Part shown: positions 1-9,841 of the stretch, in pieces
How the letters are laid out: each line of letters opens with the position of its first letter
How positions within the stretch are numbered: the first letter of the stretch is position 1
DNA from: a virus
IMG/VR virus record: IMGVR_UViG_3300012001_000037
Coordinates: 1 to 21,522 of that record
Direction: 5' to 3' (one strand)
Length of the DNA stretch: 21,522 nucleotides
Position numbers and translations under genes: made by a program
Notes under the pieces: model-generated
What the model was told of the DNA's origin: nothing
Seen by the model: the letters and a program-made list of their open reading frames with translations, nothing else
The model's database searches: none

Positions 1-84
1 ACCATTATGCCACCCGGCCATTGGGTGAAACAGTGTCAAAGACACAGAGGCCGGGAAGGGAATCGAACCCTTATTTCAAAGCTA
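1..84 (-). tRNA. Putative circularly permuted tRNA, 5' half running off the window
   Basis: Read on the minus strand, a 3' tRNA half comes first: T-stem 72-68, T-loop TTCGATT 67-61, T-stem 60-56, 3' acceptor strand CCCGGCC 55-49 and a T at the discriminator position. After a 28-base spacer containing the hairpin GTGTC-TTT-GACAC (45-33), a 5' half begins at 19 with GGCCGGG and a D-arm-like start, then leaves the window. The two acceptor strands pair 7 of 7. The start of the 3' half (near 84) is a guess and the anticodon is not in the window. The alternative is a conventional tRNA starting at 183, which leaves an A-G mismatch in the acceptor and needs a large anticodon-loop insertion. Confidence 0.4.
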
Positions 85-121
85 GGGTGTGTATACGGTC
101 GATCAGTGTAGTATTGAAGCT

Positions 122-150
122 TCTGAATCTAGAGCGATAATCTGAATCTA
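122..150 (-). repeat. Direct repeat TAGATTCAGA x2 in the junction between tRNA halves
   Basis: The 10-mer TAGATTCAGA occurs at 150-141 and 131-122 (minus-strand reading), 19 bases apart. A shorter copy, CAGATTCA, occurs at 239-232 just before the 3' half of the putative permuted tRNA. The copies therefore sit at the presumed outer ends of tRNA halves. They are direct rather than complementary, so they do not form a bulge-helix-bulge by themselves. Confidence 0.8.
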
Positions 151-228
151 AGAGCTTGCCTCTACCATTTGGGCTACCCTGCCATGATTTGGTGGCAGGG
201 AGTGGACTCGAACCACTACTGGAAGCTA
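147..228 (-). tRNA. Putative circularly permuted tRNA (3' half precedes 5' half)
   Basis: On the minus strand a 3' half comes first: anticodon 3' stem AGCTT (227-223), 5-base variable loop, T-arm 217-201 with loop TTCGAGT, acceptor CCCTGCC (200-194), A73 at 193 and an encoded CCA (192-190). Six bases later the 5' half starts: acceptor GGCAGGG (183-177), TA, a D-arm (174-158) and anticodon 5' stem AAGCT (157-153). Acceptor strands pair 7 of 7 and anticodon stems 5 of 5. Joining 183-147 to 228-193 gives 73 nt, a normal tRNA length. No conventional 5' half lies upstream of the 3' half. The junction, and so the anticodon, is uncertain; a join after position 37 would give a loop CTTAGAT (anticodon UAG). 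Confidence 0.5.
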
Positions 229-2847: not shown

Positions 2848-2921
2848 TACTCGCGGAGAGACTCGAACTCTCAACTACTGAATTTTAAGTTCAGCCCCTC
2901 TGCCGATTGGGGTACGCGAGC
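2848..2921 (-). tRNA. Class I tRNA with leucine anticodon TAA
   Basis: Acceptor GCTCGCG pairs with CGCGAGT through a G1-U72 wobble; D-stem is CCCC/GGGG. The anticodon arm CTGAA-CTTAAAA-TTCAG is perfect (anticodon TAA) and the T-arm is GAGAG-TTCGAGT-CTCTC. The variable loop is only five bases (TAGTT), whereas bacterial tRNA-Leu has a long variable arm, as the two neighbouring Leu tRNAs here do. The anticodon reads UUA, but the amino acid charged onto it is open. Confidence 0.8.
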
Positions 2922-2928
2922 TTGCTTG

Positions 2929-3010
2929 TACAGGTGGTGGGATTCGAACCCACATATCCGAAGAAATAGAGGCCTAAACTCTACGTGTCAACCAATTGCA
3001 CCACACCTGC
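2929..3010 (-). tRNA. tRNA-Leu(TAG)
   Basis: A class II tRNA. Acceptor GCAGGTG pairs with CACCTGT (G1-U72), the anticodon arm is TAGAG-TTTAGGC-CTCTA (TAG), the long variable region is 13 bases with a TTCG loop, and the T-arm is GTGGG-TTCGAAT-CCCAC. A73 is present and CCA is not encoded. Confidence 0.93.
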
Positions 3011-3127
3011 ATAACTATTTAACCGATAGTTCGGACAGCATGGTGACCGCTGTTCTAGCCGCAGGAGCTTTAGGATCCTGTCTACCTGCCTGAAGACCTG
3101 CCCGAGGGCCGTTCTCTTCAGATCGCG

Positions 3128-3213
3128 TGCAGTCGATGGGACTCGAACCCACAAGGGCTTTTCAGCCCACAACGACCTCAACGTTGCGCGTCAACCAATT
3201 GCGCCACGACTGC
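3128..3213 (-). tRNA. tRNA-Leu(GAG)
   Basis: A class II tRNA. Acceptor GCAGTCG/CGACTGC is perfect, the anticodon arm is CAACG-TTGAGGT-CGTTG (GAG), the variable arm forms a GGGCT/AGCCC stem, and the T-arm is GTGGG-TTCGAGT-CCCAT. A73 is present. Confidence 0.95.
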
Positions 3214-3223
3214 CTATTTATAA

Positions 3224-3394
3224 TCATACCACGGACTCGGGCTCACGTCCATCTACCTCTGTACATGGATAATCCTCAGGACTCGTCCAGTCGTCACCGC
3301 TTCGCTTGCAAGATTTGCAAGACCACCAGCCGAAGTCGCTGACATCCAGTGCGGAATGCCCTGTCCGTTGATATTGGTACTCGTATCTCGTTAT
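3224..3394 (-). pseudogene. Zinc-ribbon-like small ORF with no start codon
   Basis: A 56-residue open frame runs from just after the 3' end of tRNA-Ser(GCT) to a TGA at 3224. It reads like real protein: YEYQYQRTGHSALDV, then FGWWSCKSCKRSGDDW with a CxxC pair, then SPEDYPC with a third Cys, suggesting a half zinc ribbon. No ATG, GTG, TTG or CTG opens the frame before the conserved part, except a CTG at codon 16. A GTG one base after the tRNA discriminator is in a different frame. It could be truncated by arrival of the tRNA gene, frameshifted, or started at a rare codon. The fold assignment is tentative. Confidence 0.4.
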
Positions 3395-3399
3395 TCACG

Positions 3400-3483
3400 C
3401 GGAGACGGAGAGAATTGAACTCTCTGGAGTGTTACCTCGTACTTCCTTAGCAGGGAAGCTCCTAACCAAATCGGGTCGTCTCC
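3400..3483 (-). tRNA. tRNA-Ser(GCT)
   Basis: A class II tRNA. Acceptor GGAGACG/CGTCTCC is perfect with discriminator G73, typical of Ser. The anticodon arm is CTTCC-CTGCTAA-GGAAG (GCT), a long variable arm follows, and the T-arm GAGAG-TTCAATT-CTCTC keeps the usual U54/A58, unlike the three other Ser tRNAs here. Confidence 0.95.
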
Positions 3484-3487
3484 AATA

Positions 3488-3652
3488 CTAGCGGTTACGT
3501 GCTGTGTGCTTTGTAACCGTTGCGTTGATCCAGAGAAGTGCTTCCTCCAGTTTTGTGATGGCCAGCTGCTTCTCGCGTCCATCCGGGATGTTATCCTGTA
3601 CGGTCTCAATGGTGGCGAGAATCGACTTCTCGGCTTTTTCGTGTTGTGTCAT
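3488..3652 (-). CDS. Acb2/Tad1-domain small protein (anti-CBASS/anti-Thoeris type)
   Basis: A 54-residue protein, MTQHEKAEKS to TARNR, with the conserved hairpin motif IPDGREKQLAITKLEEALLW (residues 22-41) followed by INATV. This matches what I know of the Acb2/Tad1 hairpin domain (DUF7681). Characterised members bind cyclic nucleotides or cyclic ADP-ribose signals and so blunt CBASS or Thoeris immunity. It is shorter than most members and is essentially only the helical hairpin. There is no Shine-Dalgarno: a TATAAT box ends six bases before the ATG, predicting a leaderless message. A 20-base inverted repeat flanks the start. It sits between rtcB and tRNA-Ser(GCT). Family confidence is good; the ligand is unknown. 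Confidence 0.82.
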   Translation of the reverse strand: MTQHEKAEKSILATIETVQDNIPDGREKQLAITKLEEALLWINATVTKHTARNR

Positions 3653-3684
3653 ATTTCTATTATACACGAGAAAGCCGAGAAGTC
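3624..3684. repeat. 20-base inverted repeat around the acb2-like start
   Basis: Arms 3624-3643 and 3665-3684 are reverse complements with one mismatch in 20, separated by 21 bases that hold the TATAAT box and the ATG. The left arm encodes residues 4-10 of the Acb2-like protein and the right arm covers the promoter spacer. RNA reading through from rtcB would fold into a long hairpin, while RNA started at the local promoter would lack the 5' arm. Confidence 0.85.
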
Positions 3685-3686
3685 TA
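3659..3686 (-). promoter_or_regulatory. Leaderless promoter of the Acb2-like gene
   Basis: TAGACT (3686-3681, 4/6), a 16-base spacer and a perfect TATAAT (3664-3659), then six bases to the ATG at 3652, so transcription should begin at the ATG. It lies just beyond the rtcB stop and could also transcribe the tRNA-Ser/Leu/Lys/Arg group. Confidence 0.65.
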
Positions 3687-3688
3687 AT

Positions 3689-4882
3689 CTAGCCCTTGAC
3701 GCAGAGGATGGTCTGGAGGTGCTGGACAACCTCTACAAGATCCTTCTGGGCATCAAGGACACTATGGATGTCTTTGTACGCGCCCGGAATTTCGTCCACA
3801 ACGCCCTGATCCTTGCGGCACTCGACACCAAGTGTTTGTGCTGCGAGGTCCTCCACCGTGAAGGTGGCCTTGGCCTTGTTTCGGCTCATGCGCCGACCAG
3901 CACCATGGGAGGCTGACTGGAAGGATGCATCGTTGCCGAGGCCGCGCACGATGTAGGACCCGGTACCCATCGATCCGGGGATCAGACCGAGGTCGCCGGA
4001 ACCGGCCCGGATAGCACCCTTACGGGTGACCAGCATGGGACGGCCATCGATCATCTCTTCGGCCACGTAGTTATGGTGACAGGAGATTTCCTGATCGAAG
4101 GTGAGGGCGTTGGTCGGGAAGGAGTCCTTGATGACGCCCTTGAAGAGTTCCATCATGACCTTGCGGGACCGGAGCGCGAACTCCTGTGCCCATGAGAGGT
4201 CAAACCGGTAAGCCGCCATCTCCGGGGTGTTAGCAAGGAACACGGCGAGGTCGGGATCGGCAAGGTCCTGATTCTGCGGGAGCGCCTTCGCGATCTTGAT
4301 GTGCCGTTCGGCCAGTTCCTTGCCGATATTGCGTGAGCCCGAGTGCAGGGTGAGCCAGACACGGCCTTCAGCGTCGAGACACATCTCAAGGAAGTGGTTC
4401 CCACCGCCAAGAGTACCCATCTGGTGCTGTGCACGGCTCTCCAACTGCTGCACACCGGCATGCAGGTCACGGAAGCTGCCCCAGAAGGTGTCCCAACCAC
4501 GGTCGATGCCGAGACGACGGACGTTCGGCATCTTGTCATGCCCATTGAAGCCTACAGGGATGGTGTCTTCGACCCGAAGGCGGATCGAGTGCAGGTCCTC
4601 AGGCAGGTCTGCTGCCGTGAGGGAGGTACGGACGGCAGAGACGCCACAGCCGATGTCAACGCCGACGGCTGACGGCGAGATGGCGTTCTCCATGGCAATG
4701 ACGGAACCGACCGTGGCACCCTTGCCGAGGTGTACGTCAGGCATTACGCGCACACCATGGACCCACTGTAGGGAGGCGATGTTGCGGAGCTGCTGCAGTG
4801 CGGCAGGCTCAACTTCGTGCTCGTGAGCCCACATCAATGTGGAGTGCTTGGCACCGCGAAGTGCGATGGGGAAATCAGTCAT
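3689..4882 (-). CDS. rtcB: RtcB-type RNA ligase
   Basis: A 397-residue protein of the RtcB family, which uses GTP and metal to join RNA ends carrying a 2',3'-cyclic phosphate or 3'-phosphate to a 5'-OH. All hallmark motifs are present: MPDVHLGKG (48-55), VDIGCG with D76 and C79, GGGNHF with N162/H163, LHSGSRN with H180, SCHHN (267-271), GSMGTGSY (303-310) and SHGAGRRMSR with H326, the expected guanylylated His. Length matches the bacterial form and no intein is seen. The ATG has an AAAGGA Shine-Dalgarno. Lying inside a tRNA array, it could repair tRNAs cut by host anticodon nucleases or join the unusual tRNA halves at the left edge; both roles are inferences. Confidence 0.97.
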   Translation of the reverse strand: MTDFPIALRGAKHSTLMWAHEHEVEPAALQQLRNIASLQWVHGVRVMPDVHLGKGATVGSVIAMENAISPSAVGVDIGCGVSAVRTSLTAADLPEDLHSIRLRVEDTIPVGFNGHDKMPNVRRLGIDRGWDTFWGSFRDLHAGVQQLESRAQHQMGTLGGGNHFLEMCLDAEGRVWLTLHSGSRNIGKELAERHIKIAKALPQNQDLADPDLAVFLANTPEMAAYRFDLSWAQEFALRSRKVMMELFKGVIKDSFPTNALTFDQEISCHHNYVAEEMIDGRPMLVTRKGAIRAGSGDLGLIPGSMGTGSYIVRGLGNDASFQSASHGAGRRMSRNKAKATFTVEDLAAQTLGVECRKDQGVVDEIPGAYKDIHSVLDAQKDLVEVVQHLQTILCVKG

Positions 4883-4895
4883 TTCTTCGTCCTTT

Positions 4896-4905
4896 GTCGT
4901 TAGTC
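4896..4905 (-). promoter_or_regulatory. Leader motif GACTAACGAC (copy 2) before rtcB
   Basis: Identical to the 10-mer before the DUF7873-like gene and at nearly the same distance from the start (13 versus 12 bases). A TACAAT hexamer, a possible -10, lies just upstream near 4911-4916 without a clear -35. Confidence 0.4.
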
Positions 4906-5020
4906 CTTAAATTGTAAACTAGTGATATGTTAGCTGGAATTCAACCAGTATGGGTGATGAATCCACCAGTTCAGGTAATCAGCCTAAACTCCGACAGCAT
5001 GTCGATCTTTCACATATCAG

Positions 5021-5097
5021 TGCCCCCAGAGAGATTCGAACTCCCATGTGTCCAGTTAACCTTTCAACTAGTTCGTAGCCAGAGGGTATATGGAGGC
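5021..5097 (-). pseudogene. Degenerate tRNA-like gene, possibly Phe-derived
   Basis: Acceptor GCCTCCA pairs with TGGGGGC and the T-arm GGGAG-TTCGAAT-CTCTC is good with A73, but the rest is poor. The D-arm has no clear stem. The anticodon region folds as CTAGTT/AACTGG with loop GAAAGGTT, which puts the usual U33 in the stem and leaves GAA at the loop edge. A normal tRNA-Phe(GAA) exists at 7545-7617. It may be a decaying copy, a processing signal or a decoy. The gap from 4906 to 5020 holds nothing else I can support. Confidence 0.45.
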
Positions 5098-5116
5098 ATA
5101 ATCTATTCTAACATAC

Positions 5117-5689
5117 TTACTTTTTCTTCCCCCTACAGAAGGTGTCCGTTTGGCTGTGACAATTCGGGCAAACAATACGCAAATTTTCAATCCGATTGTT
5201 GAGTGTGTCACCGTCCACATGGTCTAGTTGGAGAGTCAAAGGTTTCCCCTGCCATTCCGGACCAGACCCACAGCAGACACATTCATTGGCTACCCCAAGG
5301 TTGCTGACCATTAGACGCTTTAATGACTCATTACTTCGTTTCTTACCATAGGTGAATACTTCATCAATAGTCTGCTGAACTCTTTTTACACCCACCTTAT
5401 TAAAAACAGGCAGGTTAATGTCACACTCTATCGAGAATTTTCGAGCAATTTTGTAACTAGCATTAGACGGATTCTTACCCATCCCAACCAAAACTTGGTG
5501 CAGAGAATCACTAGAAGAGCAGAGGTGCCTAAAAAGCTCTATATCCCAGAATTCCTTGGGACGGATCGTGTTAAGACTGTATTTCTTTAGCCAATATCGT
5601 ACTGTCGATTGTGTCACAGATGACAGCGAGGCGATGCCGCGCTGGGTGTGCCCAGCATCGATTAGCGATTGGAGGTAGTCTCGCTGCAA
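5117..5689 (-). CDS. HNH homing endonuclease with N-terminal helix-turn-helix
   Basis: A 190-residue free-standing HNH endonuclease. The N-terminus (about 11-37, AGHTQRGIASLSSVTQSTVR) resembles a DNA-binding helix-turn-helix. The C-terminal nuclease has C137/C140, the catalytic LDHVDGD motif with H157, N165, IENLRIVCPNCH (168-178) and a basic tail. These nick or cut DNA at specific sites to copy themselves into alleles that lack them. The start is a TTG at 5689, chosen because an AAGGA Shine-Dalgarno lies eight bases upstream and no ATG fits. It interrupts the tRNA array between tRNA-Ile(TAT) and the degenerate tRNA ahead of rtcB. Confidence 0.93.
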   Translation of the reverse strand: MQRDYLQSLIDAGHTQRGIASLSSVTQSTVRYWLKKYSLNTIRPKEFWDIELFRHLCSSSDSLHQVLVGMGKNPSNASYKIARKFSIECDINLPVFNKVGVKRVQQTIDEVFTYGKKRSNESLKRLMVSNLGVANECVCCGSGPEWQGKPLTLQLDHVDGDTLNNRIENLRIVCPNCHSQTDTFCRGKKK

Positions 5690-5713
5690 TATACGTCCTT
5701 CAAGTAAGTTTAG

Positions 5714-5745
5714 TGCGGGCTTTTACCGCAGTCTCAGGTTGAGAC
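5714..5745 (-). other. Two tandem hairpins upstream of the HNH gene
   Basis: TGCGG/CCGCA with a 7-base loop (5714-5730) abuts GTCTCA/TGAGAC with a 3-base loop (5731-5745). They lie between the tRNA-Ile(TAT) 3' end and the HNH start, with no T-run. A processing or attenuation structure is possible. Confidence 0.4.
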
Positions 5746-5791
5746 TGTTTCCGGATCCGATAGGCAACGTCGTAGCATATAAGTCCGTACG

Positions 5792-5866
5792 TAGGCCACC
5801 TCGGGCTCGAACCGAGATATCCACACCTTATAAGAGTGCTAGCTTCACCAATTTGCTTAATGGCCC
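5792..5866 (-). tRNA. tRNA-Ile(TAT)
   Basis: Acceptor GGGCCAT pairs with GTGGCCT (G1-U72), the anticodon arm is GCACT-CTTATAA-GGTGT (TAT, reads AUA), and the T-arm is CTCGG-TTCGAGC-CCGAG. A73 is present and CCA is not encoded. Confidence 0.9.
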
Positions 5867-5874
5867 ATACTACG

Positions 5875-5948
5875 TACCCCGAGAGGGACTCGAACCCACA
5901 ACTTCTGACTTTTGAGGCCAGAGACTCTGCCAATTGGTCTACCGGGGC
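5875..5948 (-). tRNA. Class I tRNA with leucine anticodon CAA
   Basis: Acceptor GCCCCGG pairs with TCGGGGT through G1-U72 and G7-U66. The anticodon arm is CTGGC-CTCAAAA-GTCAG (CAA, reads UUG), the variable loop is five bases (AAGTT), and the T-arm GTGGG-TTCGAGT-CCCTC has one mismatch. As with the TAA tRNA at 2848-2921, the leucine anticodon sits on a short-variable-loop body. The D-loop and T-loop resemble those of tRNA-Gly(TCC) in this array. Charging identity is uncertain. Confidence 0.8.
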
Positions 5949-6065
5949 AGAGCTTCCATGTTGACGATTTGTCCGGGCGTCAACGTCTCCGGTCTGGCCT
6001 TCTCCTACCCGCAAGTAATACCAGCACTTTGATGATCACCCGTGGCTGTGGGTGTCGGGATTTCG

Positions 6066-6134
6066 TAGACGGTCAGGGTATCGATCCCTGCGGAAAATCC
6101 GTGTAAAGGATTTGTACGTCCCAGCGCCCCGTCC
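6066..6134 (-). tRNA. Atypical tRNA-Val(TAC) with shortened D-region
   Basis: The anticodon arm AATCC-TTTACAC-GGATT (TAC) is perfect, followed by a 5-base variable loop and T-arm CAGGG-ATCGATA-CCCTG, with A instead of U at 54. The 3' acceptor ACCGTCT pairs with GGACGGG through G1-U72 plus five further pairs, with G7-A66 mismatched. Only about 15 bases separate acceptor and anticodon stem, so the D-arm is reduced. It may be a functional minimal tRNA or a decaying one. A near-consensus promoter ends about ten bases upstream. Confidence 0.5.
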
Positions 6135-6144
6135 ATATGTTTAA

Positions 6145-6228: not shown

Positions 6229-6312
6229 CGGAAAGCAGAGGGCACGATCCCCACTCCTTACAGAGCGTCCAGTTTTCGAGGCTGGTCCTATCACCTGACA
6301 GGTTTACTTTCC
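6229..6312 (-). tRNA. tRNA-Ser(CGA) with non-canonical T-loop
   Basis: A class II tRNA. Acceptor GGAAAGT/GCTTTCC with G73, D-stem CCT/AGG, anticodon arm CCAGC-CTCGAAA-ACTGG (CGA), then a long variable arm. The T-arm TGGGG-ATCGTGC-CCTCT has A54 and U58 in place of the near-universal U54 and A58. Confidence 0.8.
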
Positions 6313-6379
6313 AAGAATGCCTGAACTCCCGTCACACGCTGTGTTTCGAGCGCTTTCCGGTTCCTTCCCAGACATCCAG

Positions 6380-6463
6380 CGGATAGCAGAGAGACCGAGT
6401 CCCATAGCTTGCACTACCACACGCTTTCCAAGCGTGGCCCGCCACCCGACGGGTTTACTATCC
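6380..6463 (-). tRNA. tRNA-Ser(GGA) with non-canonical T-loop
   Basis: A class II tRNA. Acceptor GGATAGT/GCTATCC with G73, D-stem CCCG/CGGG, perfect anticodon arm CACGC-TTGGAAA-GCGTG (GGA), then a long variable arm. The T-arm TGGGA-CTCGGTC-TCTCT has C54 and G58 and an A53-U61 pair. Confidence 0.82.
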
Positions 6464-6477
6464 ATGTAGTTCTTCGC

Positions 6478-6533: not shown

Positions 6534-6618
6534 CGGAGAGCAGAGAACATGATTCCCACAGTATTACCTGCCAACGGGGTTCAAAGCCGCGCCGGTTCGC
6601 CTGCCCGGTTTACTCTCC
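6534..6618 (-). tRNA. tRNA-Ser(TGA) with non-canonical T-loop
   Basis: A class II tRNA. Acceptor GGAGAGT/GCTCTCC with G73 and D-stem CCGG/CCGG. The anticodon arm is GCGGC-TTTGAAC-CCCGT (TGA) by alignment with the two sister Ser tRNAs, with a weak top pair. A long variable arm follows. The T-arm TGGGA-ATCATGT-TCTCT has A54 and U58. Confidence 0.75.
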
Positions 6619-6622
6619 AAAA

Positions 6623-8208: not shown

Positions 8209-9841
<1,633 letters not shown>

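Follow-up and report, generated by a model that had tools for sequence, protein, structure and literature searches.

Leucine tRNAs are described, in the accessible part of a review (PMC9976931), as carrying a long variable arm everywhere except in animal mitochondria. The same text gives A73, the A15-U48 pair, G18G19, and A20a as leucine determinants in Escherichia coli and reports that E. coli tRNA-Leu variants deprived of the long arm remain active, meaning that the arm is not required. In addition, the accessible text of another paper (PMC6582537) mentions a tRNA-Leu(TAG) with a short variable loop in a tRNA cluster of the Mycobacterium mucogenicum clade; this was the one explicit mention in a literature search that covered few subscription journals and found no paper devoted to class I tRNA-Leu, the form with a short variable region, in phages or bacteria. 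Here, we describe two class I tRNAs with the leucine anticodons UAA and CAA, encoded in the minus-strand tRNA array of the virus record IMGVR_UViG_3300012001_000037. The analyzed 21.5-kb stretch, 21,522 nucleotides in full and hereafter called the window, comes from a phage akin to Arthrobacter phages Mimi, Racecar, Talia1610, and Atuin. The related phages have Arthrobacter globiformis as their laboratory host. Judging from their sequences, both tRNAs are very probably ordinary leucine tRNAs with a compact body that the leucyl-tRNA synthetase (LeuRS) of the host charges.

The systems to which they can be compared differ in how far the likeness extends. Animal mitochondrial tRNA-Leu, according to the part of the review available (PMC9976931), has no long arm, and LeuRS charges it by way of A73 and A14, as is proposed here, but it is an organellar tRNA and is likened to the phage tRNAs by description, not by sequence. 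The tRNA-Leu(TAG) of the M. mucogenicum clade, as far as its available description goes, also combines a leucine anticodon and a short loop with a place in an extra array beside a long-armed chromosomal isoacceptor, but its anticodon is another one, it belongs to a bacterial genome, and it too is set beside the phage tRNAs by description only. Actinobacterial chromosomes, such as those of Arthrobacter (for example, at locus L295 from genome G004), encode a class I tRNA-Leu(UAA) that has in common with the phage tRNAs a 5-nucleotide variable region, a 3-bp D-stem, a D-loop of the AAYYGGnAGA type, A15-U48, A73, and the anticodon loop CUUAAAA, whereas the acceptor and anticodon stems of the phage copies are their own. 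The phage class I tRNA with the CAA anticodon has no class I counterpart among the tRNAs of the only host for which a full set was recovered, where the CAA tRNA is class II.

The initial annotation, made from the sequence alone, had placed two class I tRNAs with leucine anticodons at 2848-2921 and 5875-5948, and this is confirmed. ARAGORN, which finds 19 tRNA genes in the window, reports a Leu(taa) gene at 2847-2921 and a Leu(caa) gene at 5874-5948, both on the minus strand, and the Rfam family RF00005 matches the UAA tRNA with 57.6 bits (E = 2.6e-10) and the CAA tRNA with 47.9 bits (E = 1.3e-7), scores that set both far above chance. The described architecture is likewise seen in the cloverleaves: each tRNA is 74 nucleotides long, with a seven-pair acceptor stem that includes G1-U72, followed by A73, and with five bases at positions 44-48 and no long variable arm. 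The anticodon stem consists of five standard pairs in the UAA tRNA and of five pairs including one G-U in the CAA tRNA, and the T-stem is perfect in the former and has one mismatch in the latter. The window also encodes class II tRNA-Leu(UAG) (2929-3010, minus strand) and tRNA-Leu(GAG) (3128-3213, minus strand), both called by ARAGORN, whose variable regions of 13 and 17 nucleotides bear out their description as long. The minimum-energy RNA fold does not give the cloverleaf for either class I tRNA; compared with dinucleotide shuffles, the fold of the UAA tRNA is more stable (z = -3.2), and that of the CAA tRNA is weakly so (z = -1.6).

The D- and T-loops of both tRNAs had been likened to those of the tRNA-Gly(TCC) of the array, a comparison that holds for one loop and fails for the other. 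The T-loop TTCGAGT is common to both tRNAs and Gly(TCC), but it is also that of Leu(GAG), while the D-arm, with a 3-bp stem and an 11-nucleotide loop, is that of the window Leu(TAG) and Leu(GAG) and not the 4-bp stem and 8-nucleotide loop of Gly(TCC). In the ARAGORN drawings, an additional, sixth pair lies beneath the anticodon stem of both tRNAs, Leu(TAG), and Leu(GAG), but not of Gly(TCC). The resemblance to Gly(TCC) is superficial. An origin from it was rejected because both tRNAs have A73 instead of U73, because the D-arm differs, and because Gly falls outside the top five of the masked isotype models explained below.

Evidence that bears on charging comes from bacterial chromosomes. The spacing pattern of class I Leu(UAA) occurs in at least 119 stretches of genome contigs, mostly from Actinobacteria and including Arthrobacter, Paenarthrobacter, and Pseudarthrobacter; within the first 80 of these loci, ARAGORN called 74 UAA tRNAs, every one with a 5-nucleotide variable region. 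A two-spacing pattern, applied to 40 actinobacterial genomes that were chosen because class I Leu(UAA) is present (40 of the at least 119 loci being used), gave 43 class I matches and two matches that are not tRNAs, but not a single class II tRNA, with the same outcome in all 40. Because such a pattern can miss variants, one full tRNA set was recovered, that of Arthrobacter sp. MSA 4-2, which comprises 48 Rfam matches and 47 ARAGORN tRNAs and covers the 20 amino acids. Its leucine tRNAs with the anticodons CAA, CAG, GAG, and UAG are class II, and the single UAA tRNA is class I. Being the sole UAA tRNA among the 47, it must be leucylated by a normal host, and with a class I tRNA as the UUA decoder of the host, leucylation of a tRNA of this kind is normal.

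A survey of 119 genomes of the phylum to which the Arthrobacter genome G004 belongs yielded 25 with class I matches only, 60 with class II only, 2 with both, and 32 without a usable match. In this survey, 48 of 146 match rows were removed on visual inspection because they did not resemble tRNAs; most were GUUCAA ends from AT-rich genomes, and a few had class I spacing where a class II match was also present. Of the 90 matching genomes, 87 were kept. The 60 genomes with class II only show that the pattern does detect class II UAA genes, and the class I match in the two genomes with both does not look like a tRNA. The initial annotation had assumed a long arm in bacterial tRNA-Leu, and the review cited above (PMC9976931) excepts animal mitochondria alone; for the UAA isoacceptor, the genomes searched contradict both, and in many Actinobacteria the assumption is untrue. 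It was also observed that the UAA tRNA-Leu is class I or class II according to the genome, practically never both, among these 119.

Both phage tRNAs carry A14, A15, G18G19, A20a, a 13:22 mispair with A22, U48, A35, and A73, and thus contain the whole set used here as a test for leucine identity, namely the A15-U48 trans-Levitt pair, A14, G18G19, A20a, and A73. This set is present in 96 of 98 cellular class I Leu(UAA) tRNAs and 91 of 142 phage class I tRNAs with leucine anticodons, in half of the phage class II leucine tRNAs (13 of 26), and in only 2 of 731 non-leucine tRNAs, a tally that leaves aside 101 tRNAs drawn by ARAGORN without a 7-bp acceptor stem and two connector bases. In isotype models in which the anticodon loop and variable region were masked, and which were built only from other loci, the cellular class I leucine model ranked at the top for the UAA tRNA with 23.0 bits (next, Asn with 18.1) and for the CAA tRNA with 33.8 bits (next, Met with 20.0). 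This ranking is suggestive of a class I leucine body, and the 3-bp D-stem, A20a, A22, and short variable region of both tRNAs are features of the class I tRNA-Leu(UAA) lineage.

The gene for the CAA tRNA stands at a site where close relatives have a tRNA of the other class. The nearer relatives in IMG/VR are L014 and L007, whose ribonucleotide reductase beta is 98% identical to that of the window, and L008, with 89%. Around the CAA site, the flanks of the window and L014 are identical at 177 of 193 alignment columns on one side and at 81 of 93 on the other, but between them L014 has an 81-nucleotide class II tRNA-Leu(CAA), identical to the window tRNA in 55 of 85 columns; L008 also has a class II tRNA-Leu(CAA) at this site. 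The matching part of the array holds a short-loop CAA tRNA in Mimi, Racecar, and Talia1610, and in Atuin a CAA tRNA whose loop has about 10 nucleotides. Class I and class II tRNA-Leu(CAA) stand in for each other at one site, and such a swap under one anticodon is as expected if both bodies carry leucine. The initial annotation had allowed that relatives might reveal a long arm lost through sequence error, but because the difference spans the whole CAA tRNA, a sequencing mistake confined to the arm does not account for it, and that explanation was discarded. The UAA tRNA recurs in L014 as class I, with 67 of 78 columns identical. The gene that follows the CAA site also differs, being Met(CAT) in L014 and Ile(TAT) in the window. 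The latter, a tRNA-Ile(UAU) at 5791-5866 (-), adjoins the class I CAA tRNA; the UAU anticodon is uncommon in bacteria.

Class I leucine tRNAs are widespread in phages. The spacing pattern of class I Leu(UAA) occurs in at least 120 IMG/VR stretches. In the phage loci, which were mostly picked for class I UAA and so give a biased count, class I forms were also found for CAA at 20 loci, UAG at 15, GAG at 4, and CAG at 2, and class II forms for CAA at 5, UAG at 13, GAG at 10, and CAG at 1. The same short loop and array setting occur in the CAA tRNA of Mimi, the CAG, CAA, and GAG tRNAs of Pumpernickel, the UAA and UAG tRNAs of Vibrio phage X1 (L136), and Erwinia phage SunLIRen (L137). The UAG tRNA of X1, unlike the window tRNAs, keeps a D-arm that reads like that of class II leucine tRNAs, which suggests that the arm may have been lost from class II bodies more than once.

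Codon use in the window speaks to how UUG is read. The 21 window genes hold 5,522 codons, with UUG used 44 times and UUA twice. In alignments with related phages, from which L014, Racecar, and Talia were omitted as near copies and to which each gene of each phage contributed its single best segment, the UUG codons of the window account for 100 cells, of which 47 set them opposite CUN and 10 opposite UUR, so that leucine codons make up 57 of the 100, the next amino acid being Val with 11. For comparison, CUA codons are opposite CUN in 42 of 71 cells, AUC codons in 56 of 530, and UUC codons in 23 of 493. UUG is leucine in the window genes. The UUA codon itself is so rare that codon supply, as judged from the window genes, does not explain why the UAA tRNA is kept.

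From these observations, the tRNA(UAA) would be the phage-borne form of the class I tRNA-Leu(UAA) with which many Actinobacteria decode UUA, and the tRNA(CAA) would have the same type of body under a CAA anticodon and would have replaced the class II tRNA-Leu(CAA) kept by close relatives. Host LeuRS would charge both through A73, A14, the elbow contacts of A15-U48 and G18G19, and A20a, without need of the long arm, and UUG and UUA would be read as leucine during infection; the selective reason might be that the leucine tRNA pool is topped up, possibly after cleavage of host tRNAs. The suggestion in the initial annotation that the tRNAs are charged with leucine on a minimal body is thus the one favored by the host homologue, the leucine determinants, the masked models, and the CAA swap. 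Several points weigh against it. At least one determinant is missing in 51 of the 142 phage class I tRNAs with leucine anticodons, the masked classifier was correct for 73 of 131 non-leucine tRNAs, and for the CAA tRNA of Mimi it placed Met (16.7 bits) over Leu (14.2 bits), which would allow a Met-like origin of that tRNA. The UUA codons of the window provide only three alignment cells from two codons, with UUA in the relatives facing CUN in 4 of 7, and we infer from sequence that both tRNAs are charged and expressed and why the phage keeps them. In whole-body similarity to an Arthrobacter set, the CAA tRNA is nearest Leu(UAA) and the UAA tRNA is nearest Arg; this method, correct for 31 of 60 tRNAs and 27 of 46 in a leave-one-out trial, was dropped as uninformative about isotype.

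If the two were tRNAs of another isotype with a leucine anticodon, another amino acid would be placed at UUA and UUG by recoding or mistranslation. Their class I body would fit, as would the human tRNA-Leu-CAA without a long arm, a tRNA-Met derivative according to the accessible text of PMC8450103. The leucine determinants and D-arm, the host homologue, which is of the same tRNA type and, as the sole UAA tRNA, serves for UUA, and the UUG columns nevertheless make such an isotype highly improbable, and recoding to another amino acid, which the initial annotation had entertained, was rejected on these grounds. Alanine is presumably excluded for both tRNAs by A73 and the lack of G3-U70, and the isoleucine, methionine, phenylalanine, and valine synthetases, which we take to read the anticodon, would find theirs in neither tRNA. 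The two might instead be uncharged decoys, or replacements whose armless body escapes host nucleases or toxins that target tRNAs. The two UUA codons among 5,522 make codon supply a weak reason for a UAA gene, the CAA body changed class at one locus, and phage tRNAs can evade tRNA-targeting defenses, as stated in the available portions of two papers (PMC10264068; PMC11555353). However, the anticodon loop is that of host Leu(UAA), so that no escape would come through this loop, and the UUA count covers the window genes, not the rest of the phage genome. A role as decoy or replacement therefore appears unlikely, and its replacement version would in any case be compatible with leucylation and not exclusive of it. 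Degeneration of the tRNAs or assembly errors, with loss of the long arm, might be read from the one T-stem mismatch of the CAA tRNA and the long arm at that site in L014 and L008, but this is hardly credible given that the CAA body differs from that of L014 well beyond the arm and that class I UAA recurs in the independent contig L014, in many phages, and in bacteria.

With ordinary leucine tRNAs as the preferred reading, the claim of recoding lacks support, and what emerges instead is that bacterial tRNA-Leu does not always have a long variable arm. Annotation tools and readers who judge isotype by the length of the arm will misjudge such tRNAs, and the CAA site, with its exchange of class I for class II, provides a natural pair for asking which features LeuRS and tRNA-cutting toxins recognize.

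The array also contains a circularly permuted tRNA gene at 153-227 on the minus strand, which is more novel than the two class I tRNAs; a literature search covering few subscription journals found no permuted tRNAs of phages. Read on that strand, 227-190 gives the 3' half of the anticodon stem, the variable region, the T-arm, the 3' acceptor strand CCCTGCC, A73, and CCA, after which 183-153 gives the 5' acceptor strand GGCAGGG, the D-arm, and the 5' half of the anticodon stem, and the acceptor strands pair at 7 of 7 positions. The same arrangement is found in L008, with acceptor strands GCGGAGG/TCTCCGC, and in Mimi, Racecar, and Talia1610, with GCCGGGG/CCCCGGC, so that the gene is conserved in three lineages with two-sided changes that preserve acceptor pairing. 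Its position is 13892 in L014, 13612 in L008, 16127 in L001, 16130 in L004, and 16115 in L005. A scan of 1.42 Mb found the permuted arrangement 13 times, compared with none in the reversed-sequence control. These features indicate a real permuted gene, whose body appears to be of the class I leucine type by its D-arm, U48, and A73; the relatedness of bodies that the initial annotation had surmised is thereby borne out.

A second permuted gene directly follows at 72-48 and 19-1 (-), with U73 and the acceptor strands GGCCGGG/CCCGGCC; it is cut by the window end, is complete in relatives such as L014 and Mimi, and has position 14037 in L014 and 16281 in L001. The weak Rfam tRNA match at 48-183 (-), which scores 29.7 bits with a long insertion, is best read as a probable chimera of the 5' part of the first gene and the 3' part of the second, not as an intron-bearing tRNA. 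Further permuted-looking tRNAs were noticed in Atuin (L003, about 9122), in Streptomyces phage Annadreamy (L006, about 11006), and in the IMG/VR contig L130 (about 9890). Within the tRNA array of the window lies a gene for an RtcB RNA ligase (3689-4882, minus strand; Pfam PF01139, 401 bits), which may plausibly act as the ligase for the permuted RNAs or as a processing or repair enzyme. As a broader and rather doubtful speculation, phages of this group might shift leucine and other tRNAs to altered bodies or arrangements that LeuRS would still charge and to which host tRNA-targeting defenses would be blind; the armless class I forms put in place of class II ones would be a case of this, as would the permuted leucine-type gene, its product perhaps closed by the phage RtcB.

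Two minor observations concern tRNA detection in these arrays. In L014, an Rfam match to the Plastid-ycf2 5' UTR at 8572-8646 (-) sits antisense to a tRNA-Met gene, probably because that Rfam family contains tRNA sequence. In the window, four tRNA-like stretches without an ARAGORN call were recognized by eye on the minus strand at about 6055-6135, 6230-6312, 6378-6464, and 6536-6620; one is Val(TAC)-like with the T-loop ATCGATA, and three are Ser-like with unusual T-loops.

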